DNA of 64,000 bases from Cupriavidus taiwanensis LMG 19424 (GTDB taxonomy: Bacteria > Pseudomonadota > Gammaproteobacteria > Burkholderiales > Burkholderiaceae): assembly GCF_000069785.1 (NCBI RefSeq), contig NC_010528.1, positions 1,612,001-1,676,000 on the forward strand, written 5' to 3'. The notes below the pieces were generated by a model. It ran no database searches, was not told the origin of the DNA, and saw nothing but the letters and a program-made list of their open reading frames with translations. Below are positions 15,576 to 37,235 of the stretch, one piece after another. Each line of letters starts with the position of its first letter. Within the stretch, counting starts at the first letter, position 1. The position numbers and the translations under genes are program-made.

Positions 15576-15689
15576 ATAACCAGTGTGTTTCACCTGGTGA
15601 GTCGATCGCCTTGTGCCTCGATACACACACAACCAACACTACATCCCGATTCGTGACGCTGGCTTCAACCCCAGCGCCACAACCCCTCA

Positions 15690-15806: not shown

Positions 15807-15816
15807 CTTATTGTGC

Positions 15817-15854
15817 AAAACCCCTCGACAGCGTGTGCTGCGAGGGGTTTTGTC
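15817..15854 (+). terminator. rho-independent terminator of the rRNA operon
   Basis: AAAACCCCTCG and CGAGGGGTTTT form a perfect 11-bp stem with a T-rich tail (TTTTGTCTTT), 11 bp after 5S. Confidence 0.88.
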
Positions 15855-16111
15855 TTTGGCGCGGCGCAAAAAAGACCTGTAGCCGAAATCCCGGCCAACT
15901 CCGCCTGGCTTTGGCGCGAGCGCGGGATGCCAGGGAGTATTTGCAAAGTCGGTCGCTGTTGGCACGGGAATTCGTTCAATCGTGACCGGCGATGTGCCCG
16001 GGCGGCAGGAGATTGCCGGCCTGACACGGCATGCGTTGGCCCAGACGGGGCCAAGGTGCTAACCTCAAAAGGCGCGCCACCCTGCCGTCACCTCTGACAT
16101 TGGGAGAGAAA

Positions 16112-16366
16112 ATGAGCCGCTTGCTGCTCACCAATATCGACCCCGGCACTTCGGACGAAGAGATCCAGGCGTTTCTGGAAAAATACGGTTTTCCGCCCTT
16201 CGACAACCTGGAGCACGAAGACGGCGACGGTACGCACCCGGCCGTTCTGCTGACGTATGGCAACCTGGACCCCGCGGTCCTTGGCAAGCTCCAGCAGCGT
16301 ATCGACCATATGTACTGGAAGAAGCGCCAGCTCAGCGCTTCCATCCTGCATGACCGGTTTGCGTAA
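16112..16366 (+). CDS. small RRM-like RNA-binding protein
   Basis: 84 residues starting MSRLLLTNIDPGTSDEEI. The spacing of LLLTNI, a helix SDEEIQAFLEKYG and later hydrophobic strands resembles a single RNA-recognition motif, though the RNP1 aromatic signature is weak. GGGAGAG lies 5 nt before the ATG. It is a lone gene between the rRNA terminator and the convergent SRAP gene. An RNA-binding role is inferred from the fold resemblance only. Confidence 0.7.
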   Translation: MSRLLLTNIDPGTSDEEIQAFLEKYGFPPFDNLEHEDGDGTHPAVLLTYGNLDPAVLGKLQQRIDHMYWKKRQLSASILHDRFA

Positions 16367-16371
16367 GTGGC

Positions 16372-17049
16372 CTACCGCGACGGAGAATCCACGTCCGTCG
16401 TGCCGGGTTCCTCGGCAGGCATGGGCGCAAGCGGTGCGGGGGTAGCCATCATTTTCTCGGCCGGATAGAGCGTCATGAAGCTTCGCGCCAGTTCGGGATC
16501 CCGGCACGCGAGCCAGGCATCCCACTGCAGGCGCGGAATCATGACGACCGAGCGTTTTTCCTTGCCGGGGGTGTGCATCAGCTTCATCACCGCATGGCCC
16601 GGCGCGCTTACCGTGAACATGGCGAAAGAGTAGGACCCATCTGGCCATTGCCTCCATAGTCCGGCGACGCCAATGGCTGGCTCGTCCGGTAGCCAGATCC
16701 GGTAGCGGACCCACCCCTGGCCGGCAACGTAGCATGGTTCGTAGATCGCCAAGGCAGGGACCACGCACAGTTGGGTACGGTGCCACGCGCTGCACGACCC
16801 TCGCTTGTCGCCGACATACTCCGCGCGGACGTTCATCATTTCAAAATCTTTGGCGCCATGGACGTGGCGCGAGCGCGGCACAAGTCCGAACGTCGCCATC
16901 AGGCACTCGCGTCGGCCCGTCGCATCTGCACGAACGATCGGCGCGGGGTCGCCCGGCCAGATCTCCGGTTTCCATGCGCCAGTGGGCGGCTCGACCCCGA
17001 AGACATCGCGCAGCATCGGCCCGGTCGCCGGGGCGAAATTGGTACACAC
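16372..17049 (-). CDS. SRAP-domain protein (YedK/HMCES type), abasic-site DNA-protein crosslinker
   Basis: 225 residues. SRAP proteins use an N-terminal cysteine, freed by Met removal, to crosslink abasic sites in single-stranded DNA. The start is taken as GTG at 17047-17049, not the ATG six bases upstream: AAGGGAG is 7 nt before the GTG but only 1 nt before the ATG, and the GTG puts the catalytic Cys at position 2 (MCTNF). With this start the other active-site residues are Asn73 (MMNVRAE), Glu104 (IYEPCY) and His159 (LMHTPGKEKR), close to YedK Asn75, Glu105 and His160. It is the last of three minus-strand genes. Confidence 0.9.
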   Translation of the reverse strand: MCTNFAPATGPMLRDVFGVEPPTGAWKPEIWPGDPAPIVRADATGRRECLMATFGLVPRSRHVHGAKDFEMMNVRAEYVGDKRGSCSAWHRTQLCVVPALAIYEPCYVAGQGWVRYRIWLPDEPAIGVAGLWRQWPDGSYSFAMFTVSAPGHAVMKLMHTPGKEKRSVVMIPRLQWDAWLACRDPELARSFMTLYPAEKMMATPAPLAPMPAEEPGTTDVDSPSR

Positions 17050-17150
17050 GATCATGCTCCCTTGAGGTCAGCCACGACTCGCTACACCTGTCCAGGTGGG
17101 GGTGCAAAGGGCCGGGCTGGCCTCTCTCCCGTGACCGGAAGTCCCGGTCA

Positions 17151-17693
17151 TTATCGCGATACCTCCGACGCCATCTTCTTTGCCGATTCCAGGTGATGCT
17201 CCAGCGTCGGCAGTGTCTTCTTTGCAAAAGCCCGTACATCGTTGTCGCGTGCGTCGCTTGCGGCCTTGCGGAACAACGCGACCGCATCGTTATGCGCCTT
17301 GACGCCGACTTCGCTGGCGTACTGCTTGTCGAAGCTGGCGCCTTGCAGGGCACCCATGGCTTCCAGCTTCTTCTGGTCGTCAGGACTCGGCGTGGTTGGG
17401 AGCTGCACCTCCTTGGCGGTAGCCAGCCGCTTGAGGTCTTCGGCGGCGGCGCGGTGGTCCTGCAGCATCTGGCTGGCAAAGCGCTTCACCGTGCCGCTCG
17501 CGGCCTTGGACTCGGCGAGTTTGCTGGCATCGATCTCCATCTGGCCTGCCTGTGCGGCCTTGTTCATGAAGTCCACGTCGCCGGCAGGCGGCGCGGCGTA
17601 CAGGCCAGTTGTGGTCAGGCAAAGCAACATTGCCGCAAGCGCGGTCCTGGCATGGCGCCCGGTGCGGGCGGGCTGGCGAGCATCGAATGGCAT
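17151..17693 (-). CDS. DUF4142 family secreted protein
   Basis: 180 residues. A signal peptide ends near residue 34 (TALAAMLLCLTTTGLYAAP), followed by the all-helical, ferritin-like DUF4142 domain (DVDFMNKAAQAGQMEIDASKL, MLQDHRAAAEDLKRLA, ending in TLEHHLESAKKM). AGGAG precedes the ATG at 17691-17693; the frame extends 14 codons further but without a better start. The biochemical function of DUF4142 is unknown. It lies 70 bp behind the copper oxidase and is probably co-transcribed, so both act in the periplasm. Confidence 0.85.
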   Translation of the reverse strand: MPFDARQPARTGRHARTALAAMLLCLTTTGLYAAPPAGDVDFMNKAAQAGQMEIDASKLAESKAASGTVKRFASQMLQDHRAAAEDLKRLATAKEVQLPTTPSPDDQKKLEAMGALQGASFDKQYASEVGVKAHNDAVALFRKAASDARDNDVRAFAKKTLPTLEHHLESAKKMASEVSR

Positions 17694-17763
17694 GACTGTC
17701 TCCTGAACGGGCAACCATACCCGGCATTGCAACAATCATGCCGCCGCGCAGCCAGTGCCCGAT

Positions 17764-19488
17764 TCAGGAGATGCGAACGAATTTCGCGACGGACGGCACC
17801 CCCTGGGAGTCGATGACAAACAGCATGTAATAACCGGGCGGCACCAGGGAGCTCGAGGCGGGCAGGGTGACCCTCAGGTTCTTGGCGCCTTGTTTGGTAT
17901 ACCGCAACTTGATATAGCGCTGGTGCATGTCGTTGCCATGGGTCACTGCCCCCGGCGCTACCAGGGCAACGCTGGAAACATTGGGGGTACTGGAGCCGAC
18001 GGTGAAGGTTTGCCCCAGGCTCACTGTACCGGGTGCGCTGGTGATGCTGGGGCGCGCGCCCTTGAACAGGTAGGGGGGCGAATAGACCTGGGCCTGGTGC
18101 GTGCTGGTTGCCAGCGGGTTCATATCATCCTGGGACAGCAGCACGGTCGCGTCGGGCAACAGAATGGCACTGGAGTGGTAGCCCGCCTGTATGGTGTTCG
18201 GACTCATCGAAATCCAGCTGCCGGTCGGATCGCCGGCCGGCTTGTTGTAGAGCTCGCTGTCAAAATGCGGATTGTCGTAACCGTTGCTGGCAGCATTTCC
18301 GCCCACCGTAAACAGCGTGCCATCGGGCAGGATCACGGTATTGGCGTTATGGCGAGGCTGCAGCCATTGCGGAAACTGTCTCCACCCGGCGTTAGGGTTG
18401 CCGACGTCAAACCATTCGTTGTTGCGGAAGGCGCTGTCGCCTTCGGCGCCACCCGCGATCATCACGACCTGCTTGACCGGCGTGACCGAGGCGTCGGTGT
18501 AGAGAACGCCGTTGGCGTATTCATAATGCGAGCTCAGCAAGTTCGGAATGCTGCTCCATGACCAGCTGCCAGGCGTCAACAGCAAGGTATTGTAGAAAGC
18601 AGGCCCGGCCTGCATCATCTGGCCCGATGACAGCAGGTACTGGAAAGGGTACATGCCGGATGGGTCGTGTAAAGAGACCACGCTCATCGTGCCGACCCCG
18701 TCCATGCTGGCGGCAGGGGTGAACACCTCGACCACCGCGGTGGTATTGCCGGAGCCGGTCTCGTCGAGACCGCTGGTAATCACCACCCTGTTGTCCGCCA
18801 GCCTGGTTGCCGTCGGATACCACCGGCCTACCGACATATTCGGTTGCGCGGTCCAGGTTTCGCTAAGCGGATTGAACGTATAGCTGCTCAGCGCGCCCCT
18901 GAAGTTTTGCTGTCCCTCCGGCGCGTTCGGGTCCGGGTAGCGCAGATTGCCACCGGCAATAAAAACCCTGCCGTCGCTCAATATCGTCTGTCCGGCACAC
19001 CAGATATTCTCCGGCGGCGTAATGGCGTATCCCGTCCGTGTGCGGGAATCCCAGAGGTAAGCGACGCCCGTGTTGGACGCCTCCGGATTATGGTATTGGG
19101 TCGGCTCGTACGACCAGAACAGCACCTTGCCGGTGTGCAGCAACACCGCCGTGATGCCGACTACGGGAATCACGAACGGTGCGCTCCATTGGCCGGCCGT
19201 ATTGGTCGCCTGGGCGCTGGCGGCAGCCAGCACCTGTTCATCCGGCGTTGGGGCCTTCTCCAGGCCCTTTGCCACGCGACACTGCTTGGCACGTGCCTTG
19301 GCATGCGATTCCGCATGGCCTGGGCCCAGCACAGCGGTTTCCCGCTGCCTCAGCCTGGCTTCGGCCGAGGGGTTGGTGCACGCATCGTTATCAAAGCTGA
19401 CAGGGGCCGCGCAAATCGGCGGCGCTGCCATGACCAGGCCAACCATCGATGCCCACACGGTTTTCCGGAAGATCGTGAGTTGACGCAT
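17764..19488 (-). CDS. secreted copper-radical oxidase (galactose/glyoxal oxidase family, AA5-like)
   Basis: 574 residues with a signal peptide to about residue 28. Kelch-like blades (for example PTATRLADNRVVITSG) are followed by a C-terminal DUF1929 domain. By motif comparison with galactose oxidase all metal and cofactor residues are kept: Cys164 (NIWCAG) for the Tyr-Cys crosslink, Tyr224 (GRWYPTA), Tyr437-His438 (AGYHSS) and His517 (AVTHGND). It should oxidise an alcohol or aldehyde to give H2O2. The substrate is unknown; glyoxal-oxidase or GlxA-like roles are possible. AGGAGG lies 8 nt before the ATG. Confidence 0.85.
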   Translation of the reverse strand: MRQLTIFRKTVWASMVGLVMAAPPICAAPVSFDNDACTNPSAEARLRQRETAVLGPGHAESHAKARAKQCRVAKGLEKAPTPDEQVLAAASAQATNTAGQWSAPFVIPVVGITAVLLHTGKVLFWSYEPTQYHNPEASNTGVAYLWDSRTRTGYAITPPENIWCAGQTILSDGRVFIAGGNLRYPDPNAPEGQQNFRGALSSYTFNPLSETWTAQPNMSVGRWYPTATRLADNRVVITSGLDETGSGNTTAVVEVFTPAASMDGVGTMSVVSLHDPSGMYPFQYLLSSGQMMQAGPAFYNTLLLTPGSWSWSSIPNLLSSHYEYANGVLYTDASVTPVKQVVMIAGGAEGDSAFRNNEWFDVGNPNAGWRQFPQWLQPRHNANTVILPDGTLFTVGGNAASNGYDNPHFDSELYNKPAGDPTGSWISMSPNTIQAGYHSSAILLPDATVLLSQDDMNPLATSTHQAQVYSPPYLFKGARPSITSAPGTVSLGQTFTVGSSTPNVSSVALVAPGAVTHGNDMHQRYIKLRYTKQGAKNLRVTLPASSSLVPPGYYMLFVIDSQGVPSVAKFVRIS

Positions 19489-20299
19489 TGGTATGTCCTC
19501 CTGGTGTCACGGCGTTGCCATCGAATCGACGTGAAAGCCGATTCCGGCAATCTCGGGAGGCCTGCCACCGAGCATCGATGCCAGAGTCATCTGCCAGGCG
19601 GACAGGCGAAGGGGCCTCGCGGGCGGGTCCGCGCGGGGTAGCTCAGGTGCGAATGCCGCAATGACATTCGCACCGGACTTTTCTAGCTTAGGGGGGCAAG
19701 CCGAGAGCCAATGTGGGCTGGCGCACGGAACGAATGCGATTGCGGGCTTGCATTTTGCTCAAGCTGCGTGCGCTGCGCTGCGTAGATGAGTGCTGCGAGG
19801 CGGCGCGGCGGACCCGCCGTGACGCAACGATCGCCGTGCGGCGCGAAGCCGTCTCGTCAGCCATCCGGGGACAGGTATTGGGCCGGGCAGAAGCGGCGTG
19901 TGTGAGGGGAGGGCGGAGCGGGCACGAAAGTAAATCGTTCTATCACGGCCCGCACTCCGTCGAAGATATGCAGCATAACGTGGAGGTGGCGCAGCGCCTG
20001 CTGACTGCGTGCACGGAGGGCCGATTGCAAGTTGGGCGGAGGCGGGAAGTTTTGTCGCCCCGTAGCTGCGCCGCATCAATTCTTGAATTCGTGCGGCGCA
20101 TCGTATATTTTCGAGGGGCATTCCGGTGGTTGCCGCCGTGTCGGCCGGTGCCTGTTACGAGGATCGGGTTCCTACAAGCCGCAATCAATAACGCATGCCC
20201 GGAACAAGGGCCATCGCCCCCGTCCGCGCAATGCGCGCGTGACCCTGCGCAGTTGCTTGCCGCTGCCCCCTTGCTCCTGCCCATCAGAAAGGCGCTGCC
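19489..20299. other. intergenic region, no gene recognised
   Basis: About 810 bp upstream of both the copper oxidase and the transporter. Open frames here on both strands look like GC-rich noise with no family resemblance. The one clear structure is the inverted repeat at 19646-19674. Confidence 0.5.
19646..19674. promoter_or_regulatory. 10-bp inverted repeat in the intergenic region
   Basis: GGTGCGAATG-N9-CATTCGCACC is perfect and is followed by GGACTTTTCT. No plus-strand gene ends nearby for it to terminate. It lies 158 bp upstream of the minus-strand copper oxidase, so it may be an operator or a stray hairpin. Confidence 0.35.
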
Positions 20300-21892
20300 A
20301 TGGATGCAGTCCGGACATTGCTCGAAACCCAGCCGCTGCTCACGCTGTTCCTCACGGTTGCACTGGGCTATGTCATCGGCGAGATTAATATCAAGGGCGT
20401 GTCGCTCGGATCGGGCGCGGTGCTGTTCGTGGGGCTGGCGATCGGCGGGTTCGCGCCGAAGTCCGCGCCGCCTGCCATCCTTGGCACGCTGGGGCTGCTG
20501 CTCTTTCTCTATGGCATTGGGATCCAGTACGGGGAGCAGTTTTTTAAAGGTCTGACCAGCCCCGACGGCATCAAGGCCAACGCCGCTGCGGTCCTCGGCG
20601 TGGTTGGCTCCGGACTGGTCGCGGTTGCGCTGGTGCCGCTGGTCGGCGTGAAGCTGGATGAGTCGCTAGGCATGTTCGCCGGCGCGGGAACCAGCACGGC
20701 AAGCCTGCAGGCCGCGATGACGGCGATGAAGAGCGACGGCGCCGCGGTGGGCTACAGCGTCGCATACCCCGTCGGCGTGGCAGGGCCGATCCTGTTTCTG
20801 TATGCCCTCACCGCGCTGCTCAAGCCGAATATCGTGCGGCCGCCACCAAAGCTGATTGAGACCGCCGAGATTGCGCTGACCAACCCGGCGTTTATCGGTG
20901 TGCGTCTGTCGGAGGTGGTAGCGCGCCTGCCGGAGGGGGTGGCGATTGCCGCCGTGCGTCGCGCCCACCACAACTACCCGTCCGCCGACGACCTGGTCCT
21001 GCAGGCCAACGACGTGCTGCTCGCGACCGCCACCGACCCGGCCTTGCTGCGTGAAGCCACCTCGCTGTGCGGAGAACTGCAGCCGGGCCGCATGACAAGC
21101 CATCGCGAAGACCTGGACTATATGCGCGTGTTCGCCTCAAGCCGGCTCGTGGTCGGGCACACGCTGCGCGATATCCGTTTTCCCGAAGGCATGGTCTGCT
21201 CGATCGCCCATGTGCGGCGCGGCGATGCGGACCTGATGCCCCGCGAGGACCTCACCCTCGAGTTCGGTGACCGCGTCGGCCTGCTGGTCAATCGCGCCCA
21301 TATGAAGCCGATTCGTGCGCTGTTCGGCGACTCCATCAAGGGCACCGCCGAGCTGAGCTTTATCTCGATCGGCATCGGCGCGGCGCTCGGGCTGCTGGTG
21401 GGGCTGATCCCGGTGCCGATTCCCGGCGTCGGCACGCTGGCGCTGGGGCTCGCCGCGCTGCTGCTGGTCGCCCTCGTGCTCGGCCGGATGCGCCGTCTCG
21501 GGCCGTTCGTCTGGACCATGCCGCTGTCGGCCAACCTGGTCCTGCGCAACTTCGGGCTGACCATCTTCCTCGCACAGGTGGGCATTGCATCCGGGCCGAA
21601 GTTCTTCGCCACCATCGGCGTGACCGGGGTGTCCTTCCTGATCTATGGCGTGGTAATTCTGCTTGCCCTGCTGCTGATTACTGCGATTTTCTGCCTGTGG
21701 GTCTTCAGGCTGCCGTTCGACCTCGCGGTGGGCGTGATCTGCGGCGCGACCGGCAATCCCGCCATCCTTGCCTTTGCCAATCGCGTCGCGCCCACCGACC
21801 GGCCCGACCTCGGCTACTCGATGATCTTCCCGTCAATGACCATCGTGAAAATCCTGTTCGTACAGGTCGCTGCCACACTGGCTGGCGGATAG
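20300..21892 (+). CDS. aspartate:alanine exchanger (AAEx/YidE-AspT) family transporter
   Basis: 530 residues. An N-terminal block of hydrophobic helices (to about residue 180) is followed by a cytosolic TrkA-C-like regulatory segment with two RCK-C repeats (about 195-355), then a second block of helices ending in the family-typical GNPAILAFANRVAPTDRPDLGYSMIFP. AAEx members exchange dicarboxylates or amino acids, but the substrate here is unknown. The gene is followed 52 bp later by a D-lactate-type dehydrogenase, so import of a 2-oxo acid or organic acid is conceivable. Confidence 0.85.
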   Translation: MDAVRTLLETQPLLTLFLTVALGYVIGEINIKGVSLGSGAVLFVGLAIGGFAPKSAPPAILGTLGLLLFLYGIGIQYGEQFFKGLTSPDGIKANAAAVLGVVGSGLVAVALVPLVGVKLDESLGMFAGAGTSTASLQAAMTAMKSDGAAVGYSVAYPVGVAGPILFLYALTALLKPNIVRPPPKLIETAEIALTNPAFIGVRLSEVVARLPEGVAIAAVRRAHHNYPSADDLVLQANDVLLATATDPALLREATSLCGELQPGRMTSHREDLDYMRVFASSRLVVGHTLRDIRFPEGMVCSIAHVRRGDADLMPREDLTLEFGDRVGLLVNRAHMKPIRALFGDSIKGTAELSFISIGIGAALGLLVGLIPVPIPGVGTLALGLAALLLVALVLGRMRRLGPFVWTMPLSANLVLRNFGLTIFLAQVGIASGPKFFATIGVTGVSFLIYGVVILLALLLITAIFCLWVFRLPFDLAVGVICGATGNPAILAFANRVAPTDRPDLGYSMIFPSMTIVKILFVQVAATLAGG

Positions 21893-21944
21893 TGCAGGGC
21901 AGTCTGGGCGGAGCGCCCCATGCGATTCGCCACGGAGACACATC

Positions 21945-22940
21945 ATGGAAATCGCCGTTTTCAGCGCAAAGTCTTACGATCGCCAACATCTCGATGCCGC
22001 GAATGCGGTCGAAGGCCATCAGCTCAAGTACTTCGAAGTTCCCTTGGACACCGAGACGGTGGGCCTCGCCGCGGGGCACGGCGCAGTGTGCATCTTCGTC
22101 AATGACCGCGCCGATGCGACCGTGCTGGAAGCGCTCGGACGCGGCGGCACCAGGCTGGTCGCGCTGCGCTGCACGGGGTTCAACAACGTCGACCTGAAAG
22201 CCGCGCAGGCGCTCGGGGTCAAGGTAGTGCGCGTTGTCGACTACTCGCCCAACTCGGTCGCCGAACACGCGGTGGCCCTGCTGATGGCGGTCAACCGCAA
22301 GATCCACCGGGCCTACAACCGCACGCGGGACTTCAATTTCTCGCTCGAAGGCCTGATGGGCTTCGACCTGTGCGGCAAGACCGTGGCCGTGATCGGCACC
22401 GGCAAGATCGGCCGCGTGTTTGCGAAGATCATGGTCGGGTTCGGTTGCAACGTGATCGGCTACGACAAGTACCCATCCCCCGAATTCGAGGCCCTTGGCG
22501 GACGCTACGCGGACGAGGGAGAAATCGGCGCAAGCGCGGACTGCATCTCGCTGCACTGCCCGCTCACGCCCGAGACGCATCACATCATCAACGCCGAAAC
22601 GCTGTCGCGCGCCAAGCCGGGAGCCTTGCTGATCAACACCAGCCGCGGCGGGCTGATCGACACGGAAGCAGTCATCGCGGCGCTCAGGAGCGGGCAACTC
22701 GGCGGGCTGGCGATCGACGTGTACGAGCAGGAGGCGGGGCTGTTCTTCCGCGACCTGTCCGGCACCATCATCGACGACTCCGTGCTGCAGCAGCTGGTTA
22801 CGTTCCCTAACGTGATCGTGACCGGGCACCAGGCCTTCCTCACCCGCGAAGCCGTGATGACCATTTGCGAAACAACCTTGCGCAGTGTGACGGAGTTCGA
22901 ACGCGGCAAGTCGCTCACGAACGAAGTCAGTGCCAGTTGA
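21945..22940 (+). CDS. ldhA: 2-hydroxyacid dehydrogenase, D-lactate dehydrogenase type
   Basis: 331 residues, the size and sequence pattern of LdhA, which reduces pyruvate to D-lactate with NADH. Visible features: the Rossmann motif VIGTGKIGRVFAKI near residue 150, the substrate arginine region LLINTSRGGLID near 232, and the catalytic His near 295 (IVTGHQAFLTREA). GGAG lies 7 nt before the ATG. It is probably co-transcribed with the AAEx transporter. It is convergent with the next gene across a 180-bp gap that holds nothing recognised. Confidence 0.88.
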   Translation: MEIAVFSAKSYDRQHLDAANAVEGHQLKYFEVPLDTETVGLAAGHGAVCIFVNDRADATVLEALGRGGTRLVALRCTGFNNVDLKAAQALGVKVVRVVDYSPNSVAEHAVALLMAVNRKIHRAYNRTRDFNFSLEGLMGFDLCGKTVAVIGTGKIGRVFAKIMVGFGCNVIGYDKYPSPEFEALGGRYADEGEIGASADCISLHCPLTPETHHIINAETLSRAKPGALLINTSRGGLIDTEAVIAALRSGQLGGLAIDVYEQEAGLFFRDLSGTIIDDSVLQQLVTFPNVIVTGHQAFLTREAVMTICETTLRSVTEFERGKSLTNEVSAS

Positions 22941-23119
22941 AGAACGGCTGTCGGCGTCATGTCGCCCCGCTAATGGCTTAAACCGCTGCCGGAAAAGCCT
23001 GCCGCCCAATCCACGATCGCGCGCACTCGCACCCGCTGTGAGGCGCGGGGGCGGCGCGAAACGAGGCCCGCGACGATGCGGCGCTGGCGACAGACCGGCA
23101 TTCACCGGCCTGTGCGGCC

Positions 23120-24139
23120 TTAATCAGCCGTGATGTGGTTGGCCTTCACCACCTCGCCCCACATCTTGTAGTGGGTGCGGGTCAGCGTTGCGAGCTGCTC
23201 AGGCGTGCCGCCGCCGGGCTCGTCGCCGCGATCGACGATGCTCTTGACGACGCCCGGGTCCTTCAGCGCCGTATTCAATGCGCCGTTGGCCTTCTTGACG
23301 ATGTCAGGGCTCAGGCCCGGCGGCCCGTACAGGCCGATGAACGAGATGATGGTGAAGTCCTTGATGCCGCTCTCGGTAGCGGTCGGCACGTCCGGGATCA
23401 TGGCTACGCGCTTCGGCCCCGTGACCATCAGCGGCCGTAACTGGCCCGATTTGATGAAAGGCGCGACGACCGACGTGGCATCGAACATCGCATCCAGGCG
23501 TCCGGCCATCAGGTCGACCATAGCCGGGCTGCTGCCTTTGTAGGGCACATGGTTCATCTTCGGGCCGCCCATGCGCTCGCGCAGCAATTCCATCGTGACA
23601 TGCGGCAATGCGCCGGTGCCGCCCGAGCCATAGTCGATGGTCTTGCCCGACTTGTCGCGCGCCTTGACCTCCTCGACGAACTGCGCGTAAGTCTTGATGG
23701 GCGAACTGGCAGGCACGACGAGGACCAGCGGCGACTGCAGCATCACGCCTATCGGCGTCAGCTTCTGTGGATCGACGATGCCAAGCTTGGTGTAGACGTG
23801 CGGCATGATCGTCATCGAGCCATTGCCTACCAGCAGTTTGTTCCCGTCAGGCGCCGCGCGCATGACCTCGATGGAGGCGATATTGCCGTTCACGCCGGCC
23901 TTGTTGTCGATGACAAACGACTGGCCGAGCGAACTCTGCAGGCCGTTAAGCAGCGCACGCCCCGCGAAGTCGGTCTGGCCACCGGGCGGAAAGCCCACGA
24001 GCAGCGTTACTGGCTTGGTCGGCCAGCTGGTCTGCGCCCACGCGGCGGTGGTTGCCAGCGCGCCAAGGCCGAGGGCAGCGACGCTCAGGATCAACGCGGA
24101 ACGGCGCGAATACACGGGCGATTTCTTGGTGATTGTCAT
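23120..24139 (-). CDS. Bug/TctC-family periplasmic substrate-binding protein
   Basis: 339 residues. A signal peptide with an Arg-Arg (YSRRSALILSVAALGLG) ends near AAWAQ. The mature part is typical Bug: WPTKPVTLLVGFPPGGQTDFAGR and the VDLMAGRLDAMFDATS core. It sits 47 bp behind the mannonate dehydratase and is probably in one operon with it, which suggests a sugar acid or uronate-derived ligand. No TctA/TctB membrane genes accompany it, as is common for Bug proteins in Cupriavidus and Bordetella. GGAG precedes the ATG at 24137-24139. Confidence 0.88.
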   Translation of the reverse strand: MTITKKSPVYSRRSALILSVAALGLGALATTAAWAQTSWPTKPVTLLVGFPPGGQTDFAGRALLNGLQSSLGQSFVIDNKAGVNGNIASIEVMRAAPDGNKLLVGNGSMTIMPHVYTKLGIVDPQKLTPIGVMLQSPLVLVVPASSPIKTYAQFVEEVKARDKSGKTIDYGSGGTGALPHVTMELLRERMGGPKMNHVPYKGSSPAMVDLMAGRLDAMFDATSVVAPFIKSGQLRPLMVTGPKRVAMIPDVPTATESGIKDFTIISFIGLYGPPGLSPDIVKKANGALNTALKDPGVVKSIVDRGDEPGGGTPEQLATLTRTHYKMWGEVVKANHITAD

Positions 24140-24186
24140 GACAGGTCTCCGATTATGTTTTGTCTGGGCCGCAGCCCCACGGCGCT

Positions 24187-25227
24187 TCAGGCCGTCTTTT
24201 CCATCGCTTCCCACATCCCGTTGATATAGACCGCGCCGAGTGCCCGGTCATAGAGGCCGTATCCCGGCTTGCCCGTCTCGCCCCAGATCATGCGGCCGTG
24301 GTCGGGGCGGTAATAGCCCTGGAAGCCGACGTCGTGGTACGCCTTGACGATCGCGGCAATATCCAGCGATCCGCAACTCGAGAGGTGGGCGGTTTCCTCG
24401 AAATCGCCTTCCGGCGTGATCTTGACGTTGCGGATATGGGCGAAGTGGATGCGTCCCATGCCGCCGAACTCGCGCACCAGCGCCTCGACGTTGTTCTGGG
24501 GGCCGGCGCCAAGCGAGCCCGAGCACAGCGTCAGGCCGTTTGCCGGCGTGTCGACGATCGCCAGGATGCGTGCCAGGTCGTCGCGGTTCTTGACGATGCG
24601 CGGCAGTCCGAAGATGGGCCGCGGCGGATCGTCCGGATGAATGGCCATCTTGATGCCGCACTCCTGGGCCACCGGAATGATCGCGCGCAGGAAATGCTCC
24701 AGGTGCTCCCAGAGCCTGCCTTCGTCGATGCCACGATATTCGGCCAGCAGCGACTGCAGTTCTGCGTGAGCGTAGCTGGAATCCCAGCCGGGCAGGGCGA
24801 TCCCCTGGCTGACGTCGATCTGTTCGACCTCGCGGGTGCTGAAGGCAAGGCAGGTCGAGCCGTCATCGAGCTTCTTTGCCAGTTCCGTACGGGTCCAGTC
24901 GAACACCGGCATGAAGTTGTAGCAGATGACCTCGATGCCCGCGGCGGCCAGGTTCCTGATGGTCTGCTGGTAGTTCGCAATCAGCCGCTCGCGCGTCGGC
25001 TTGCCGAGCTTGATGTCCTCATGGACGGGAACCGACTCCACCACCTTGAACTGCAGCCCCGCCGCCTCGATCGTGGACTTGAGCGCCTGGATCTTGTCCA
25101 GCGGCCATACCTCCCCGACCGGCTCGTCGTAGATGGCCGAGACGATGTGGGTCATGCCCGGGATCTGCCGGATGTATTCGAGAGGAATCGGGTCGGTCGG
25201 GCCAAACCAGCGGAACGACATCTTCAT
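24187..25227 (-). CDS. uxuA: mannonate dehydratase
   Basis: 346 residues. It dehydrates D-mannonate to 2-keto-3-deoxygluconate in hexuronate catabolism. Family signatures include [21 protein letters not shown] at the start, [31 protein letters not shown] (metal-binding region), [13 protein letters not shown], and [13 protein letters not shown] near the C-terminus. The length matches the shorter UxuA subtype. The ATG at 25225-25227 is chosen because AAGGAAG is upstream; the frame extends 18 codons without family similarity. It diverges from a GntR regulator with UxuR/ExuR-like operators between them. Confidence 0.92.
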
Positions 25228-26229: not shown

Positions 26230-26568
26230 GGGATAGCTCGTTGGGCAGAGCTCATAGCGCATTCCGTAGCGCCGGCCTGGTACGTCAACGATTTAACATA
26301 ATATACATTATGCGAAACGCGCGTGTAGCGGCAAAGTTGTAATGTCCGGTTCTGGCTAAGTTCAAATGTCCGAGTTGGTCCAAGGTTCCCAGACCGTGGA
26401 ACCCCCGGCAGACTTCCCGGTCCACTGAAATGGCCGTGGCGCGACGCCTTCCAGAAGCGGCGTGAACACCGGAAATACCGGAAAGGCTTCGTCTCCAAGG
26501 CGGACAGGCGCCTGAAGGATGAGTCGGTCATGGCCACCCCCAGCACGGTTCTTCCTCATCCGCCCATG
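26230..26568. other. intergenic region around dif
   Basis: It holds the dif site at 26291-26318 and, from 26341, two AATGTCCG-type repeats (AATGTCCGGTTCTGGC and CAAATGTCCG) that resemble the ends of some IS21-like elements. No transposase gene is present. The plus frame 26440-26530 is rich in Arg/Lys but matches nothing I recognise. Confidence 0.5.
26291..26318 (-). other. dif: dif site (XerC/XerD recombination site, replication terminus)
   Basis: Read on the minus strand the 28 bp are XerC arm GTTTCGCATAA, central TGTATA, XerD arm TTATGTTAAAT. The centre and XerD arm are identical to E. coli dif and the XerC arm differs at two positions (26 of 28 overall). XerCD resolves chromosome dimers here under FtsK control. 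KOPS-like octamers (GGGNAGGG) lie on the plus strand to the left (17860, 24790) and on the minus strand to the right (28800, 29763, 29777, 40506, 61990), all pointing toward the site. One opposite copy is in the 5S gene (15717). Confidence 0.9.
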
Positions 26569-27034
26569 AACATCCGACGCGGCCTCGAAACCGACGCCTC
26601 CATACTCAGCCATAGCGTTCCAGGCCAAGGCGCACTGGCCATACACCGCCGCCCAACTCGAAGCGTGGCGCGAAGACCTGACGATCGCTGGTGCATATGT
26701 CGCGCAAACCTTCACCTACGTTGCCGAAATCAATGGAAGGATCGCCGGGTTCTGTACAGTCCGCGCGACGGACGCGATGTCGGGCTGGCCGCTTGAGCAT
26801 CTGTGGGTCGTGCCGGACTACATGGGCCGGGGCATCGGCCGGGCACTGCTGCAGCATGCGTCCGGCCTCGCCGCCGCCACGGGCGTGAAACAGCTCACGA
26901 TCGATGCGGAACCGTATGCCGAACCGTTCTATATCGCTTGTGGCGCACGGCGTATCGGTGTCATCGATGCGCCTCTGGATGGAAATCCTTCGCGCCAGCG
27001 GCCGCAAATGCTGCTGGCAACGTCATTGGACTGA
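26569..27034 (+). pseudogene. GNAT N-acetyltransferase, frameshifted
   Basis: The frame from ATG 26569 reads MNIRRGLETDASILSH and then loses sense. Shifting by one base at about 26614 restores a continuous GNAT protein (AFQAKAHWPYTAAQLEAW, then FTYVAEINGRIAGFCTVRA, LEHLWVVPDYMGRGIGRAL and TIDAEPYAEPFYIACGARRIG) to the stop at 27034. The acetyl-CoA loop (YMGRGIGRAL) is intact. One extra base, or two missing, near CATAGCG explains it; a sequencing error is the alternative. It lies 250 bp from dif. Confidence 0.8.
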
Positions 27035-27231
27035 GACAGAACCCGCCGCGGGTGATGGTGAGTCCGGGTTATCCTAGCCCGCAAACAGCGCCCGGCATGG
27101 GGGGTGCCCGCAAATGCGGCGCCAGGACAGCGTGCGCCAACGCACGGAAGGAGAAGGCGGCGCGCGGCATGCTGGCGCATCGCCGTCCCCTCAGGGGGCT
27201 TGTGCTGTGCAAGCCATGGAGCGCGACTAGG

Positions 27232-28542: not shown

Positions 28543-28933
28543 CTCCAACTCCTTGTCATGACACGATGGTCGGTCTGAGAGGACTGCCTGCCCGCCCTGG
28601 CCACTTGCCTGGTCGGAAAGGGACTAGCGGTACTGGCGAGCAAGAACGACGCAACTTCTGTTCCACGAGGCAGGGCCTCCGCGCAGGAGCCGCTGGCCGT
28701 CGTCGCGGCCGCCCGCTGCGGCAAGGGCTGCCGCGGCGTTGCAGAATTTGCCGGCCGCCGTCCCCTTCCGAGACACTGCGGCCGTGCAGTGATATGCCCC
28801 CCTCCCCGGCATCTGGCTGCACAAGAACAAGACAACCGCCAACCCTGCATGCTCCCACTGCATCGGGCGTATTCCGCCACGGCCGCGACAACGCTGCGCT
28901 ACCGGGACCGGAGCCTGAACGCCAGCCGCGCCG
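28543..28933. other. intergenic region, no gene recognised
   Basis: About 390 bp. Open frames on both strands have no recognisable family. A KOPS-like octamer on the minus strand lies at 28800-28807. Confidence 0.4.
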
Positions 28934-29755
28934 TCAGGGCGCCGCGACCATGACCACGTGCGCCTGCATCGGGCCGGCCAGCGGCCCGGCGCCGTAGGCC
29001 TGGACCAGCGCCTGCTCGCAGTGATTGGTCGCACGCATCAGGGCGTCCGGCCCGCGTGCCTCCAACTCGGTGCGCAACGGCGTGCCCTGGCAGAACGCCA
29101 TGGCGGGAATGCGCGCGGCGGCGGCATGGCTGGTCTCGGCGACGGTCTCGAACACCGCGCCGGCGGTGAACCCGCCCGTGCGCAGGTCCTGCTCGATCGT
29201 GGCCTGGCTGTGGTAGCCATGCGGGACGCGCACCATGAAATCGGGCGGCGCATCGGGAAACAGCGTGGCAAGCGCCGCGGTGATATCGCGGGCAAAGGCG
29301 TTGAAGGCGATCCGGTCCCAGACGTTGAACACCAGCGTGCCGCCCGGCGCCAGCACGCGGCGCGCCTCGGCAAACGCCTTGCCCTTGTCGGGGAAGAACA
29401 TCGCGCCGAACTGGCATGCCACCAGGTCGAAAGTGGCGTCATCGAACGGCAGCCGCATGGCGTCGGCCTCGCGCCATTGCACCGGGCGCGCGGTGCCGGC
29501 GGCTTGCGCGCGTGCCAGCATTGGCGCATTCAGGTCGGTGGCGACCACCAGGGTGTCGGCCGGCATGCGCGCGGCGAGCTCGCGCGTCAGCGCCCCGGTG
29601 CCGGCTGCCAGCTCCAGCACCCGGCTTGGCCGCAGTGCGGCGATGCGCCGCCCCAGGTCGGCGGCATAGGGCGCGAAGATCATCGGCACCATCAGAGCCT
29701 CATAGGTCTCGGGAATTGCCCCGGCAAAGACTTTGTCCTGGTGTTGCATGCCCAT
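28934..29755 (-). CDS. class I SAM-dependent methyltransferase
   Basis: 273 residues with the canonical motif I VLELAAGTGALTRELA near residue 47, an acidic loop ATDLNAPML, DAMRLPFDDATFDLVACQFG (motif II) and RRVLAPGGTLVFNVWD (motif III). It is of the UbiE/BioC-like type 11 group. The substrate is unknown. The ATG at 29753-29755 follows GGAGGG; the frame continues upstream in low-complexity sequence. Confidence 0.85.
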   Translation of the reverse strand: MGMQHQDKVFAGAIPETYEALMVPMIFAPYAADLGRRIAALRPSRVLELAAGTGALTRELAARMPADTLVVATDLNAPMLARAQAAGTARPVQWREADAMRLPFDDATFDLVACQFGAMFFPDKGKAFAEARRVLAPGGTLVFNVWDRIAFNAFARDITAALATLFPDAPPDFMVRVPHGYHSQATIEQDLRTGGFTAGAVFETVAETSHAAAARIPAMAFCQGTPLRTELEARGPDALMRATNHCEQALVQAYGAGPLAGPMQAHVVMVAAP

Positions 29756-30019
29756 GGCCCCGCCCTCCCCTGACCGCCCTACCCAAACTCGCCGCCGTCG
29801 CCTGACTGGGTGTAGGTCACATCGCGGCGAATGTAAACCTGGCGCGCGGGGATGCGGTAAACGCCTTATGCCGGCGCGAACGCCTTCCGCTGTGGTACGC
29901 CGGCCACGGCGCGGATCTTGCGGAGCAGGCATGATCGGGCCGACTGTGACGGGCGCCCGGGCCGGCACGCGGGCAAGTTGGCGCCGTCGGTTGCAAAACG
30001 TACAGACCAGAGCATCACA

Positions 30020-30889
30020 ATGATCCGGATCGGCATCTCAGGCTGGCGCTATGCCGGCTGGCGCGGCGTGTTCTATCCCGAGGGCCTGCCACAACGGCGG
30101 GAACTGGAATTCGCGTCGCGCGCGGTCGAGACCATCGAGATCAACGGCTCGCACTACGCGCTGCAGACGCCGAAGAGCTATCGCGCCTGGCATGAGGCCA
30201 CGCCGCCGCACTTCGTCTTCAGCGTCAAGGGCCCGCGCTACCTGACCCACATGCTGCGCTTTCGCGACGACTCCGCCCGGCCAGCCATGGCCAACTTCTT
30301 TGCCTCCGGCGTGCTGGCGCTGGAGGAAAAGCTGGGGCCGGTCCTGTGGCAGTTCCCGCCCAACTTCGCCTTTGATCCGGAGCGCATGGAACGCTTCCTG
30401 TCGCTGATCCCGCACGACACGCACAGTGCCCGCGAACTGGCGCAGCAGCACAACCGCAACGTCCGGGAGCCGTGGTGCGAAACCCGGCGCCGGCGCCCGA
30501 TCCGGCATGCGGTGGAAATCCGCCACGCCAGCTTCTGCACGCCGGAATTCCCGGCGCTGCTGCGCCGGCACCGTGTGGCGCTGGTCATCTCCGACGCCGT
30601 TGCCGACTGGCCCTATGCCGAGGACGTCACCAGCAACTTCCTGTACCTGCGCCTGCATGGCTCCGAGACGCTGTATGGCGGCGCCTATTCCGATGCCGCG
30701 CTGGACCGCTGGGCCGCGCGGCTGGTCATGTGGGCCAACGGCCAGGAACCCGCCGACGCACAGCGGATCTCGCCAAAACGCCCACGCGCCGCCGCGCATC
30801 GGGACATCTACTGCTATTTCGACAACGACAAAAAGGTCAAGGCCCCATTCGACGCGCAGCGCTTGCGCGCGCGCATCGAGGAGAAATAA
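30020..30889 (+). CDS. DUF72 family protein
   Basis: 289 residues with the DUF72 TIM-barrel pattern: IRIGISGWRYAGWRGVFYPEG at the start, VETIEINGSHYALQTPKSYRAW, FSVKGPRYLTHMLRF, LGPVLWQFPPNF, AVEIRHASF and YLRLHGS. The biochemical role is unknown; endonuclease IV-like similarity has been proposed for the fold. It stands alone and divergent from the methyltransferase. Confidence 0.85.
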   Translation: MIRIGISGWRYAGWRGVFYPEGLPQRRELEFASRAVETIEINGSHYALQTPKSYRAWHEATPPHFVFSVKGPRYLTHMLRFRDDSARPAMANFFASGVLALEEKLGPVLWQFPPNFAFDPERMERFLSLIPHDTHSARELAQQHNRNVREPWCETRRRRPIRHAVEIRHASFCTPEFPALLRRHRVALVISDAVADWPYAEDVTSNFLYLRLHGSETLYGGAYSDAALDRWAARLVMWANGQEPADAQRISPKRPRAAAHRDIYCYFDNDKKVKAPFDAQRLRARIEEK

Positions 30890-31003
30890 GGTTGTGGACG
30901 AATGCTGAATTGATGCAGGTATGCGCGAATGGATGCAGTTGGCTTCGTGGATACTCCGGCAGCGCCCGCCAAGCACGACAACTCTATCAACGAGAGCCCA
31001 CAC

Positions 31004-31348
31004 TCAATCCCTGATCCTGGGCATCCACCCACTCCCCCGCGTCCGCGGATCCACCGGCAACTGCCGCTGCAGCGCAGCCTTGGCCAGCATATGCGCGCTG
31101 ATCGGCGCAGTCAGGAACAGGAACGCGGTCACCAGCAATTCATGCAGGGTGGCGTCGCCGCGAAAGCCGAAGTACGCCACCGACGCCAGTACCACGCCGC
31201 CCACGCCCAGCGTGGTCGACTTGGTCGGCCCGTGCAGGCGCATAAAGAAGTCCGGCAGCCGGAACAGCCCGATGGCCCCGACCAGCATGAACACGCTGCC
31301 CACCAGCAGCAGCGCGCAGACAATGAATTCGGCAACGGGATGCAGCAT
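31004..31348 (-). CDS. mrpG: Mrp Na+/H+ antiporter subunit G
   Basis: 114 residues, three membrane helices with the family core LVGAIGLFRLPDFFMRLHGPTKSTTLG. MrpG is a small accessory subunit of the multi-subunit Na+(K+)/H+ antiporter. Last gene of the operon, 11 bp behind mrpF. Confidence 0.9.
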   Translation of the reverse strand: MLHPVAEFIVCALLLVGSVFMLVGAIGLFRLPDFFMRLHGPTKSTTLGVGGVVLASVAYFGFRGDATLHELLVTAFLFLTAPISAHMLAKAALQRQLPVDPRTRGSGWMPRIRD

Positions 31349-31359
31349 GTGCCAGGCTC

Positions 31360-31632
31360 CTAGTATTCGATGATATCGCCGCGCTGCAGGTACTTGGACA
31401 GCGCCACGGTGGCGACAAAGCCCATCACCGCGATCAGCAGCGCGGCCTCGAAGAACACGGCCGAGTCCAGGCTGATGCCCAGCACGACGATCAGCGCGAT
31501 GGCGTTGATGTTGAGCGTATCCAGCGCCACGATGCGATCGGGCAGGCTGGGCCCGCGCAGCAGCCGGCCGAGCGTCAGCAGGAAGGCCAGGCCAAGGATC
31601 GCCAGGCAGATCGGAATCACGATGGCAAGCAT
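31360..31632 (-). CDS. mrpF: Mrp Na+/H+ antiporter subunit F
   Basis: 90 residues, three helices, with the conserved segment GPSLPDRIVALDTLNINAIAL. It overlaps the end of mrpE by 16 bp, indicating translational coupling. MrpF is needed for antiport and may influence bile or solute efflux in homologues. Confidence 0.9.
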   Translation of the reverse strand: MLAIVIPICLAILGLAFLLTLGRLLRGPSLPDRIVALDTLNINAIALIVVLGISLDSAVFFEAALLIAVMGFVATVALSKYLQRGDIIEY

Positions 31633-32120
31633 TGGAAGATCTCCTTGAGCGGGGTTTCATAGCGCGACTTGATCAGCGCGACCAGCGCGGCCTCTTCCTC
31701 CAGGTCCAGCACATGGACCAGCAAGGCGCGGCGGTCGTCGCTCAGTTCGGCGCAGAGTGTGCCGGGGCTGAGCGAGACGATGCTGATCAGCGCGGTGGTG
31801 GCGAGCTCATGCTCGACATCGAGCGGGACCACGATAAAAGCCGGCCGCAGCCGCGCGGTACGTCCCAGCACCATCACGGCCACTTCCAGGTTGGCCCTGA
31901 CGATGTCGATCAGCACGTGGCAGCTCAGCCGCAGGATCAGGTCCGGCCGCGACAGGCGGAAGGCGCCCAGCACCAGCCAGCGGTCCGCCAGCCGGCCGAT
32001 GGCCCAGCCCAGCGCCGCGCCGAGCAGCCAGTGCCCGGGCGCGACGCTCTGGACCAGCATCAGCCACATCAGCATCAGGATCAGGCTCAGCCAGGGATGG
32101 GGCAGCAGACGGCGCATCAT
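31617..32120 (-). CDS. mrpE: Mrp Na+/H+ antiporter subunit E
   Basis: 167 residues. N-terminal helices (PWLSLILMLMWLMLVQSV) are followed by the MNHE cytosolic domain with TALISIVSLSPGTLCAELS and LLVHVLDLEEE. It follows mrpD by 2 bp. Confidence 0.9.
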   Translation of the reverse strand: MMRRLLPHPWLSLILMLMWLMLVQSVAPGHWLLGAALGWAIGRLADRWLVLGAFRLSRPDLILRLSCHVLIDIVRANLEVAVMVLGRTARLRPAFIVVPLDVEHELATTALISIVSLSPGTLCAELSDDRRALLVHVLDLEEEAALVALIKSRYETPLKEIFQCLPS

Positions 32121-32122
32121 GC

Positions 32123-33664
32123 CTACCCCCGTTCGCCGGGCAGCACTGCCCGCAGGTAGGCGGCGCGGTCCAGCAGTTGCGCGGCAGCATCCGCCACGTA
32201 GTCGCTGACCGGACGCGCGCCGACGGTCAGCGCCAGGTTGCCCGCCAGCAGCAGCATGCAGCAGGCCAGCTTGCGCGCATCCGGCCGCACCCGCAGGCGT
32301 GCCGCGCCGGGATGGTCTTCGTCGAGGTATTCCGGGCCTTCGGCCACGCGCTGCGCTTCATGCGGCAGGCGCCACAGCATCCGCGTGCCGGTACGCGAGA
32401 CGGCGACCAGCATCAGCAAGCTGGACACCAGCACCGCGGGCCACAGCACCGGCATCCACTGCGCCGGCGTGGCGCGCAGGATCATGGCCTTGCCGAGGAA
32501 ACCCGACAGCGGCGGCAGGCCGACCGCCGCGACCACGCCCACCAGGTACAGCAGCCCCGCCAGGCGCGAAGCAATGACCGGCGCGCCGTCGGTGCGCGCG
32601 GCTTCGGGCTCGAGCGCGTCGGCCAGCAGGAACAGCGCGGCCGTGCACAGCGTGGTGCTGAGCAGGTAGTACAGCGCCGCGGCCCAGCCGGCCTGGCTTT
32701 GCATCGACACGCACGCCGCCAGCAGCCCGACCGAGGCCACCACCAGGTAGCTGGTCATGGCGCGCAGCGCCGTCGCCGCCAGCGCGCCCAGCGCCCCGAC
32801 CGCCAGTGTGGCCAGCGCCAGCGTGAACACCCAGTCGTGCAGGAACGGCCCCAGCAGCCCCTGCGCGCCGCCGAAGATCAGCGCGTCGCAACGCAGCATG
32901 GCGTAGATGCCGACCTTGGTCATGATGGCGAACAGCGCCGCCACCGGCCCGGTTGCGCTGCCGTAGGCGCGCGGCAGCCAGAAGTACAGCGGGAACAGCG
33001 CCGCCTTGAGCGCGAACACCAGCATCAGCATCGCGCCCGCGGCCACCGCCAGCGGCAGGTCCTGCGCCGGCAGCCCGGCCAGCCGCAGCCCCAGGTGTGC
33101 CATGTTGAGCGTGCCCGAGAGCCCGTACAGCACGCCGATCGCGACCAGGAAGAACGACGACGCCACCAGGTTAAGGATCACGTAGTGCAGGCCGGCGCCG
33201 ACGCGCGCGCGCCCTGCCCCGTGCACCAGCAGCGCGTAGGAAGCGATCAGCAGGATCTCGAAGAAGACGAAGAGATTGAAGAGGTCGCCCGCCAGGAACG
33301 CGCCGTTCAGGCCCATCAGCTGGAACTGGAACAGCGCGTGGAAATGCCGGCCCTGGCGCGCCGTGCTCTCGCCCGCCGCGGCCAGCGCGGCCACCGCCAG
33401 CAGCGCGGTCAGCGCCAGCATCATCGCGCCGGTGCGGTCCAGCTGCAGCACGATGCCGAACGGCGCGCTCCAGTCGCCCATGGCATAGACCGAGATGTCC
33501 CCGCCGGCCGCATGGCGCAGCAGCAGCACCGCCACCGGCACCAGCAGCAGCGTGGCCACCGCGCTGGCCGTGCGCTGCGCGTGCAGCCGCTGGGCCGGCA
33601 TCGCCGTCAGCAGCGCGCCGGCGAACATCGGGATCAGGATGGGCAGCAGCACGGCGTGGTTCAT
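32123..33664 (-). CDS. mrpD: Mrp Na+/H+ antiporter subunit D
   Basis: 513 residues, about 14 membrane helices. It is homologous to the NuoM/NuoN proton-channel subunits of complex I, with the FNLFVFFEILLIASYALLVHG segment carrying the conserved membrane glutamate and an ALKAALFPLYFWLPRAY segment carrying the lysine. With MrpA it forms the ion-translocating core. The stop overlaps mrpE's upstream region closely and the start overlaps mrpC by 4 bp. Confidence 0.93.
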   Translation of the reverse strand: MNHAVLLPILIPMFAGALLTAMPAQRLHAQRTASAVATLLLVPVAVLLLRHAAGGDISVYAMGDWSAPFGIVLQLDRTGAMMLALTALLAVAALAAAGESTARQGRHFHALFQFQLMGLNGAFLAGDLFNLFVFFEILLIASYALLVHGAGRARVGAGLHYVILNLVASSFFLVAIGVLYGLSGTLNMAHLGLRLAGLPAQDLPLAVAAGAMLMLVFALKAALFPLYFWLPRAYGSATGPVAALFAIMTKVGIYAMLRCDALIFGGAQGLLGPFLHDWVFTLALATLAVGALGALAATALRAMTSYLVVASVGLLAACVSMQSQAGWAAALYYLLSTTLCTAALFLLADALEPEAARTDGAPVIASRLAGLLYLVGVVAAVGLPPLSGFLGKAMILRATPAQWMPVLWPAVLVSSLLMLVAVSRTGTRMLWRLPHEAQRVAEGPEYLDEDHPGAARLRVRPDARKLACCMLLLAGNLALTVGARPVSDYVADAAAQLLDRAAYLRAVLPGERG

Positions 33665-34058
33665 GGCCGCGGCTCCTGGCCGGCAGCGTTGTCGCCAGCG
33701 TTGCCGCCTGCGTCAGCGTGGCCGTCGCGCGTCTCCGGCTGGCCGGCGGCGTCGACATGGTCGCTGCCGGTGAGCCCGAGCGAGCGCAGCGCCAGCACCA
33801 CCGCGAACGCGGTCATGCCGAACGCAATGACGATGGCGGTCAGCACCAGTGCCTGCGGCAGCGGATCGGCATAGCTGGCTCCTGGCGCAATCACCGGCGG
33901 CCGGCCGATCGACAGTCGCCCCATGCCGAGCAGGAACAGGCTGACCGCATAGGACAGCAGGGTCAGCCCCAGCACCACCGTAAACACGCGCTCGCGCAGC
34001 AGCAGGTAGATGCCGGCGGCAGTCAGGATGCCGATGGCGATGGCGTAGAGCGCGGCCA

Positions 34059-34059
<1 letters not shown>
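33661..34059 (-). CDS. mrpC: Mrp Na+/H+ antiporter subunit C
   Basis: 132 residues, NuoK-like with three helices (LYAIAIGILTAAGIYLLL, VVLGLTLLSYAVSLFLLGMG, ALVLTAIVIAFGMTAFAVVLA). The C-terminal tail after about residue 110 is polar and rich in Gly/Asp. Starts by a TGATG overlap with mrpA's stop. Confidence 0.92.
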
Positions 34060-36863
<2,804 letters not shown>

Positions 36864-37235
36864 CTCCGGCCCCGTCAACCGTTGCCGGGGCCAGGGGCCG
36901 GCAGGTGCCAGCCGGCCTTGCGGCGCATGGCGGGCCGGGCCGCGGGGTGGAAGACGGATCGGGTCTGGATGGTCGGGGCGGTGGTCATGGTCTGGATTCT
37001 TTCGGCAGGCGATCCCGGCCGCTACTGTCCGGATTCTGCCGGCATTGGGCCGCCTGTGCCAGTCAGTTGGCGCGATTTGCGAAAAAAATCATCGTATCGC
37101 GCAAGAATCCGAAAGCGTGTCGCCATGCGCATGCTGGTCGCCGGCAGGGCGCAGCGCATGGCCGGCGTGCCGCGTGCAAGCCGGTCGTCGACGCGACCGG
37201 CTTGCTGGCCGGAGACCGGACCCCCTGCCTTTTGT
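36864..37235. other. mrp operon upstream region
   Basis: It contains a possible 37-codon leader frame (36875-36988, minus) and a GGCCGGC/GCCGGCC hairpin (36896-36917) just before mrpA, and an A-run GCGAAAAAAATCATCG at 37079-37094. No other gene is recognised between mrpA and the end of the PQQ dehydrogenase. Confidence 0.45.
36875..36988 (-). CDS. possible 37-residue leader peptide before mrpA
   Basis: An ATG at 36986-36988 opens a frame reading MTTAPTIQTRSVFHPAARP and ending in PAPGPGNG, with its stop 11 bp before the mrpA start. A strong hairpin (36896-36917) lies within its 3' half. This resembles a translated leader, but no good ribosome-binding site precedes it and chance is possible. 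Confidence 0.25.
   Translation of the reverse strand: MTTAPTIQTRSVFHPAARPAMRRKAGWHLPAPGPGNG

Follow-up and report, generated by a model that had tools for sequence, protein, structure and literature searches.

The stretch of 64,000 nucleotides of Cupriavidus taiwanensis LMG 19424 analyzed here (the window) carries the dif site of chromosome 1, and its sequence makes it almost certain that the XerC-side flank of this site is a docking place for insertion sequences (ISs) of the IS1202 family, with the left end of one IS surviving there (Table 1). The site itself is an ordinary chromosome-1 dif, an unremarkable member of its kind. With this dif, the terminus of chromosome 1 and the extent of its two replichores are set.

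Table 1. Features of the dif locus and octamers (KOPS) pointing at it, in window positions.
Feature	Position	Strand	Remarks
dif site, chromosome 1	26291..26318	minus	XerC arm GTTTCGCATAA, centre TGTATA, XerD arm TTATGTTAAAT
5-bp spacer GCGCG, XerC arm to IS end	26319..26323		Would be one copy of the target site duplication; other copy gone with the right end
Left end of IS1202-family (ISAjo2-group) IS	26324..26376	+	About 53 bp; terminal-repeat-like 26 bp at 26324-26349; no interior or right end
First inner repeat, transposase-site-like	26331..26347	+	GCAAAGTTGTAATGTCC; from sequence
Second inner repeat	26355..26371	+	GCTAAGTTCAAATGTCC; 7 bp beyond first repeat
Ordinary flank	26384..27068		Similarity to genome G047 resumes, 86.7%
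Plus-strand KOPS toward dif (four)	12046, 17860, 19906, 24790 (span 12046..24797)	+	Motif count
Minus-strand KOPS toward dif (seven)	28800, 29763, 29777, 33212, 40506, 55213, 61990 (span 28800..61997)	-	Motif count

An earlier note on this DNA had proposed a chromosomal dif here, and the 28-mer with the arms and centre that it gave is present in the predicted orientation, as a 6-bp centre flanked by two 11-bp arms. The window contains one match to the 28-mer at up to 3 mismatches, and shuffled sequence gave 0 in 100. Throughout the genome (6.48 Mb in three contigs, C1 of 3,416,911 bp, C2 of 557,200 bp and C3 of 2,502,411 bp), the site is the sole match to the inner 26 bases at up to 3 mismatches; the 28-mer is single-copy, and the several copies named in the note as a sign against a chromosomal dif were not found. 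A looser dif pattern identified exactly one site per contig. The centres are all different, GAATAC on C2 (C2:104743) and TAAGTG on C3, where the XerD arm has one change. The note's count of 26 matching bases of 28 holds against the sequence that we take to be E. coli dif, but the dif of E. coli strain E69 (locus L149) is identical at 25/28, the mismatches being outer XerC-arm bases.

The position and the polarity of the surrounding sequence bear out the replication terminus that the note had claimed. The dif site lies at C1:1,638,291 of 3,416,911, 47.9% of the way round from dnaA (C1:0.7-2.5 kb). The KOPS octamer GGGNAGGG occurs 12 times in the window against 10.6 expected, which is no excess over chance; 11 of the 12 point at dif, and the only one pointing away, at 15720-15727, is within the 5S gene (15692-15805), as the note had said. 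All of the KOPS that it named are present, but its list left off those at 19906 (+), 33212 (-) and 55213 (-). We sampled 864 kb of the 3.417 Mb of C1, a quarter of the replicon with the window included, and counted 46 plus-strand and 8 minus-strand octamers to the left of dif and 4 and 61 to the right (Fisher 9e-20). A control octamer read backward, GGGANGGG, gave 21/18 on the left and 15/31 on the right (p 0.08). The switch on C1 falls between 24790 and 28800. Sampled plus/minus counts to the left and right of dif were 13/0 and 5/8 on C2, and 28/5 and 2/22 on C3. In the C1 samples, cumulative GC skew rises to the dif region and then falls, with its peak in the 20-kb chunk immediately left of the one bearing dif, a chunk that includes an rRNA operon which adds to the peak. 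Both checks suggested in the note, octamer polarity and skew, thus place the turn at dif in the sampled sequence.

These data also bear on whether the site belongs to a pdif-type module, or is an attachment site for an IMEX, rather than being a working chromosomal dif. ISs of the IS1202 type are best known from pdif sites, as outlined in PMC10132070, which would suit such an origin. However, there is one site on the replicon with no inverted one nearby within 3 mismatches, and the terminus position and KOPS switch are those of a chromosomal dif, which makes this explanation scarcely credible. A set of pdif modules was rejected on the single 28-mer and the one site per contig with different centres.

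The genome encodes XerD, above the cut-off of the curated model; the second-best match to that model, at C1:61295 (250.8 bits, below the cut-off), is presumed to be XerC. Two FtsK-gamma genes are present on chromosome 1 above cut-off, at C1:766697 and C1:1566769, the second about 71 kb from dif. FtsK is guided by polar KOPS, and XerCD strand exchange at dif resolves chromosome dimers at division. Judging from sequence, position, polarity and gene content, the two arms would be bound by XerC and XerD, and FtsK, steered by the KOPS, would arrive at dif and activate the dimer-resolving strand exchange.

Other loci of the window deserve mention. An rRNA operon (10842-15805, +) whose 16S-23S spacer is without tRNA genes lies 14 kb from dif. 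Among 15 relatives with full 16S copies, the copy nearest to chromosomal dif on the same replicon is within 170 kb in 14 (about 335 kb in G003), and it is oriented toward dif in 15/15; the operon nearest to dif in G038 also has a spacer without tRNAs. The genome has two full 16S genes only, that of the window on C1 and one at C3:658631. A 101-bp 16S tail occurs at C1:3137400-3137500, where relatives have operons, which reflects a real loss or a collapsed assembly. At 46287-58580 (+) there is a two-partner secretion pair made up of a ShlB/FhaC-type transporter and a 3469-aa filamentous-haemagglutinin-like protein. The latter carries a PT-VENN pre-toxin domain, and by its sequence the locus resembles a contact-dependent inhibition locus.

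The earlier reading of the locus was right about dif but overlooked the IS end beside the XerC arm. This end starts with TGTAGCGGCAAAGTTGTAATGTCCGG, 5 bp (GCGCG) past the arm, and its inner part is repeated 7 bp on. It matches a complete IS at locus L125 at 94% over 49 bp, and L154 at 98% over 53 bp. Chance was rejected as the source of the match, given an E value of 2e-15 between the window and the L125 IS, the recurrence at equal spacing in 43 of 60 genomes with 0 control matches, and the offsets. Another dif has the L125 IS 5 bp outside its XerC arm; this IS is flanked by ACTGG on both sides and has its transposase in an open frame of 485 codons. That protein, for which no PDB relative was found by sequence, reaches 521 bits against the NCBIfam ISNCY transposase model and has a Gln seven residues after the catalytic Glu. 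As the score and the Gln spacing are marks of IS1202 and ISAjo2, the window end was assigned to the IS1202 family, ISAjo2 group.

A simple motif search of the 20-36 kb region detected no right end (ACA-3'); right ends with a 5-bp target duplication do occur in relatives (L125, G047 and G033 C3). With the L125 transposase as a query, no transposase was found in the window or on C1, all four matches in the genome being on C2. The window therefore holds an IS remnant, not an IS. In a distant search of 26230-26620 against plasmids, which returned 363 records, the best 10 of 363 match dif and 50-70 bp on its XerC side. The same genome has another such end at +5 of the C3 dif (TTGCT, then TGTTGGGG) and a transposase fragment about 180 bp from the C2 dif, on the XerC side. 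A stop-free 93% relative of the L125 transposase is found at C2:393967, away from the C2 dif. It is in the region of a second IS1202-type cluster (C2:393297-395343, L365) that includes an IS with an open transposase frame; beside this IS, GCACG is followed by another left end facing the opposite way along the array.

The place equivalent to the window in G047 indicates what may have been lost. There, dif is followed by GCACA, an IS of 1529 bp, GCACA again and another left end. Sequence like that of the window is back 2.4 kb on; those 2.4 kb of IS material lie between the counterparts of window positions 26376 and 26384. As G047 has an array at this place, an array of this kind has most likely lost its interior in the window. 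On this reading, the XerC-side flank is a docking place at which an ISAjo2-group IS inserts 5 bp outside the XerC arm, with its left end toward dif and dif intact. By comparison with relatives, the interior and right end of the IS in the window were most likely deleted later, leaving the left end. The dif-side end would survive because deletions the other way destroy dif and are selected against.

We then looked at dif sites across the genus. A dif match was present in 58/60 genomes, and dif together with an end at exactly this spacing in 43/60 (pattern, up to 2 mismatches), with 0 control matches. Two sets of dif sites were fetched. Set 1 came mainly from complete genomes on a list made by dif only, to which G001, G038, G043 and G047 were added with their end-at-spacing results known; set 2 comprised the listed sites of other genomes from the dif-only list, with these results also known. 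At least 10 genomes for which two or more sites were listed (G006, G009, G011, G018, G022, G036, G051, G052, G053 and G056) were left out. An end was present at exactly +5 in 39/58 sites of set 1 and 15/40 of set 2. On the XerD side, none of the 98 sites had an end within 60 bp, and the background rate of the end motif was 14 in 1.6 million positions. In Cupriavidus, IS1202-type elements have landed time and again on the XerC side of dif.

Copies can also stack. We examined 127 distinct loci that have an end and offer 1.5 kb of flank or more; they were picked partly for the end, and motif counts for them are lower bounds. A right end whose duplication is exact is present in at least 22, and in at least 11 the first IS is immediately followed by another left end. 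Stacked copies include those at G001 C1, G033 C3, G047 C76 and G057 C2. In G059, an end with 85% similarity to that of the window is separated from dif by a complete IS; apparently, the newest copy of a stack is the one next to dif.

The shortage of complete ISs raises the question of whether the left end beside dif is retained for a function, for instance as a bound accessory site, instead of being a decaying stump. Ends without a recognizable right end are far commoner than complete ISs, and the end is supplied by several different IS lineages, both points in favour of a function. However, the excess arises in part by construction, as the loci were picked partly for their left end, and there is no end at +4 to +6 in 16/58 sites of set 1 and 23/40 of set 2, nor at any of the three dif sites of G031. 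Selection against dif-destroying deletions accounts for the surviving dif-side end without any function. We thus regard a retained function as very unlikely, and a decaying stump as the better account.

The association extends beyond the genus. For other bacteria the evidence is a pattern scan that matched at least 120 stretches in all, with Acinetobacter, Burkholderiaceae, Enterobacterales and others among the 80 listed. In the E. coli E69 chromosome (L149), a complete ISNCY-type IS adjoins chromosomal dif. A 1787-bp query containing this IS had matches in 175/5426 E. coli genomes, at 36 chromosome and 142 plasmid places, many of them partial.

Different dif centres are thought to prevent recombination between separate replicons. 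We compared 99 dif sites, with 34 genomes represented by two or more, after removal of G047 C105, a near-identical copy of C102. For each site we considered the centre, the outer four XerC-arm bases with the 5-bp spacer (XerC9) and the nine bases past the XerD arm (XerD9), and a pair was counted as alike at 75% or more. In 18/34 genomes at least two sites have like XerC9 sequences, a number reached in 0/2000 label shuffles (mean 1.7, maximum 6). XerD9 sequences are alike in 2/34 genomes (G039 and G030; shuffle mean 0.8), and centres in 1/34 (shuffle mean 7.5; 1/2000 shuffles as low). Thus, in Cupriavidus the centres are kept apart, the XerD flanks are mostly private and the XerC flanks are often shared. 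This pattern was first noticed in set 1, which is hence no test of it (6/16 genomes without the four added ones); set 2 is the nearest to one, with sharing in 9/14 genomes, or 8/13 without G032, in which sharing had been seen beforehand. Two pairs from outside the genus, one of Ewingella (L138/L143) and one of Erwinia (L151/L155), give the same picture; both were selected for their ends.

The shared blocks extend from dif into the IS end, and the point at which they stop varies, as in G038 C1/C2 (143 bp, 98%) and G035 C1/C2 (433 bp, 97%). The sharing pairs whose blocks were compared diverge 36 to 433 bp from the start of the XerD arm, the exceptions being G033 and G001 (about 1.73 kb, 92-95% identical), so recent copying of a whole IS is not enough to explain the shared halves. 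Past the nine shared bases, one replicon of G019 and of G021 has an IS and the other has unrelated DNA; sought among the other fetched loci, this DNA was present only at its own site. Draft contigs of G002, G017, G050 and G058 (L323, L326-L328, L352, L353, L357 and L358) stop about 5-390 bp from dif on the XerC side, as expected if the flank is a repeat shared between replicons.

Two sharing pairs have a complete IS on both replicons, and each consists of one partner with equal and one with unequal duplications: AGTGA/AGTGA on G001 C1 and AGCGA/AAGTT on C2, TGTGC/TGTGC on G033 C3 and TGTGT/TTGCG on C2. The unequal duplications are as expected if the dif-side half was replaced. Our tentative proposal, to which we give less than even chances, is that the XerC half, comprising outer arm, spacer and IS end, has been repeatedly exchanged or copied among chromosome, chromid and megaplasmids, while the centres differ and the XerD flanks are private. 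The likely agent would be XerC strand exchange where XerC arm and centre meet in dif sites that do not match, or else conversion of the XerC half; homologous recombination between the ISs at +5 would help, and the mismatched target duplications would be the scars. Counter to exchange, XerD flanks too are shared in two genomes (G039 and G030), unequal duplications also occur in G059 C1 and C2 and in G023 C1, which are not sharing pairs, and 16/34 genomes have no sharing. The window's genome is one of these, with different XerC9 sequences at its three sites (AAACGCGCG, CTCTGTGGC and AAAATTGCT).

That difference also speaks against the notion that XerC halves are alike within a genome by fit to the host XerC and not by copying. 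Variation in dif resides in the outer XerC arm, a point in favour of this notion. However, pairs within a genome are almost identical or else match no better than chance, and the identity extends into the spacer and the IS, making host fit an unlikely cause.

Sharing might instead come from integrative elements or dif modules that dock with an XerC half of their own, without exchange between resident sites, a possibility that we hold open though at less than even chances. Three sites of G017 and two of G058 carry the flank of the dif of megaplasmid pHG1, on which two annotated tyrosine recombinases lie beyond that flank's dif, and these two genomes fit an integrative element better than exchange. 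Inverted dif-like pairs about 1.1-1.3 kb apart in G019 and G025 point the same way. Without G017, G058 and G032, however, the pattern stays in 6/11 genomes of set 2 (shuffles mean 0.80, maximum 4), no such element was noticed in an unsystematic look at the other sharing sites, and the two recipients with unequal duplications have partners with equal ones. The sharing can be explained by exchange, by copying or by one integrative element arriving at several dif sites. If it is exchange, the shared halves record recombination at dif between separate replicons.

Regarding the elements themselves, the two annotated tyrosine recombinase genes of pHG1 from C. necator H16 (L362, 5001-7890) start about 110 bp outside the XerC arm of a dif-like site. 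Distant relatives of this pair, with 23-40% identity, occur in Acinetobacter and enterobacterial loci (L132, L162, L171 and L180), about 0.6 kb from dif on the XerD side. The inverted pairs of G019 C171 and of G025 C2 and C3 have their XerC arms inward, which is the layout of C-type dif modules.

Chromosomal dif sites served by XerCD and FtsK/KOPS, with one dif per replicon, are described for Vibrio cholerae (PMC2533119), and a KOPS polarity switch at dif is on record for chromosomes and for large additional replicons, Burkholderia and Cupriavidus being among the bacteria covered (PMC13342612). The window has the same 28-bp architecture, terminus position, KOPS switch and single site per replicon with a different centre, and the site itself is without difference from the known ones. 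IMEXs, as presented in PMC9765430, are mobile DNA that uses dif and brings its own half site. An imported half site is one way to obtain shared XerC halves; at the dif of the window, we saw no Xer-integrated element. Our search of the open-access literature, which is weak evidence of absence, found no description of XerC-half sharing, which might be new and belongs to the genus, not to this window.

The IS end in the window is a new instance of the habit of a known family. The ISAjo2 group of the IS1202 family consists of known dif and pdif hunters, with a 5'-TGT left end, a second inner repeat 7-10 bp away, and insertion at 5 bp from the XerC arm, the left end facing dif (PMC10132070). The window has the same TGT end, second repeat (7 bp apart), 5-bp spacing and orientation (26319-26371), differing in that the left end alone remains. 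The clear dif-targeting cases given in that paper are those of Acinetobacter together with ISKpn21 and ISSen13, with ISKpn65 and ISLad2 less clear, and the portions consulted do not describe stacked copies at one dif such as those of Cupriavidus. The targets of its Burkholderia entry, ISBcen27, are merely loosely dif-like (PMC10132070), whereas at this locus the canonical dif of a Burkholderiaceae chromosome was used.
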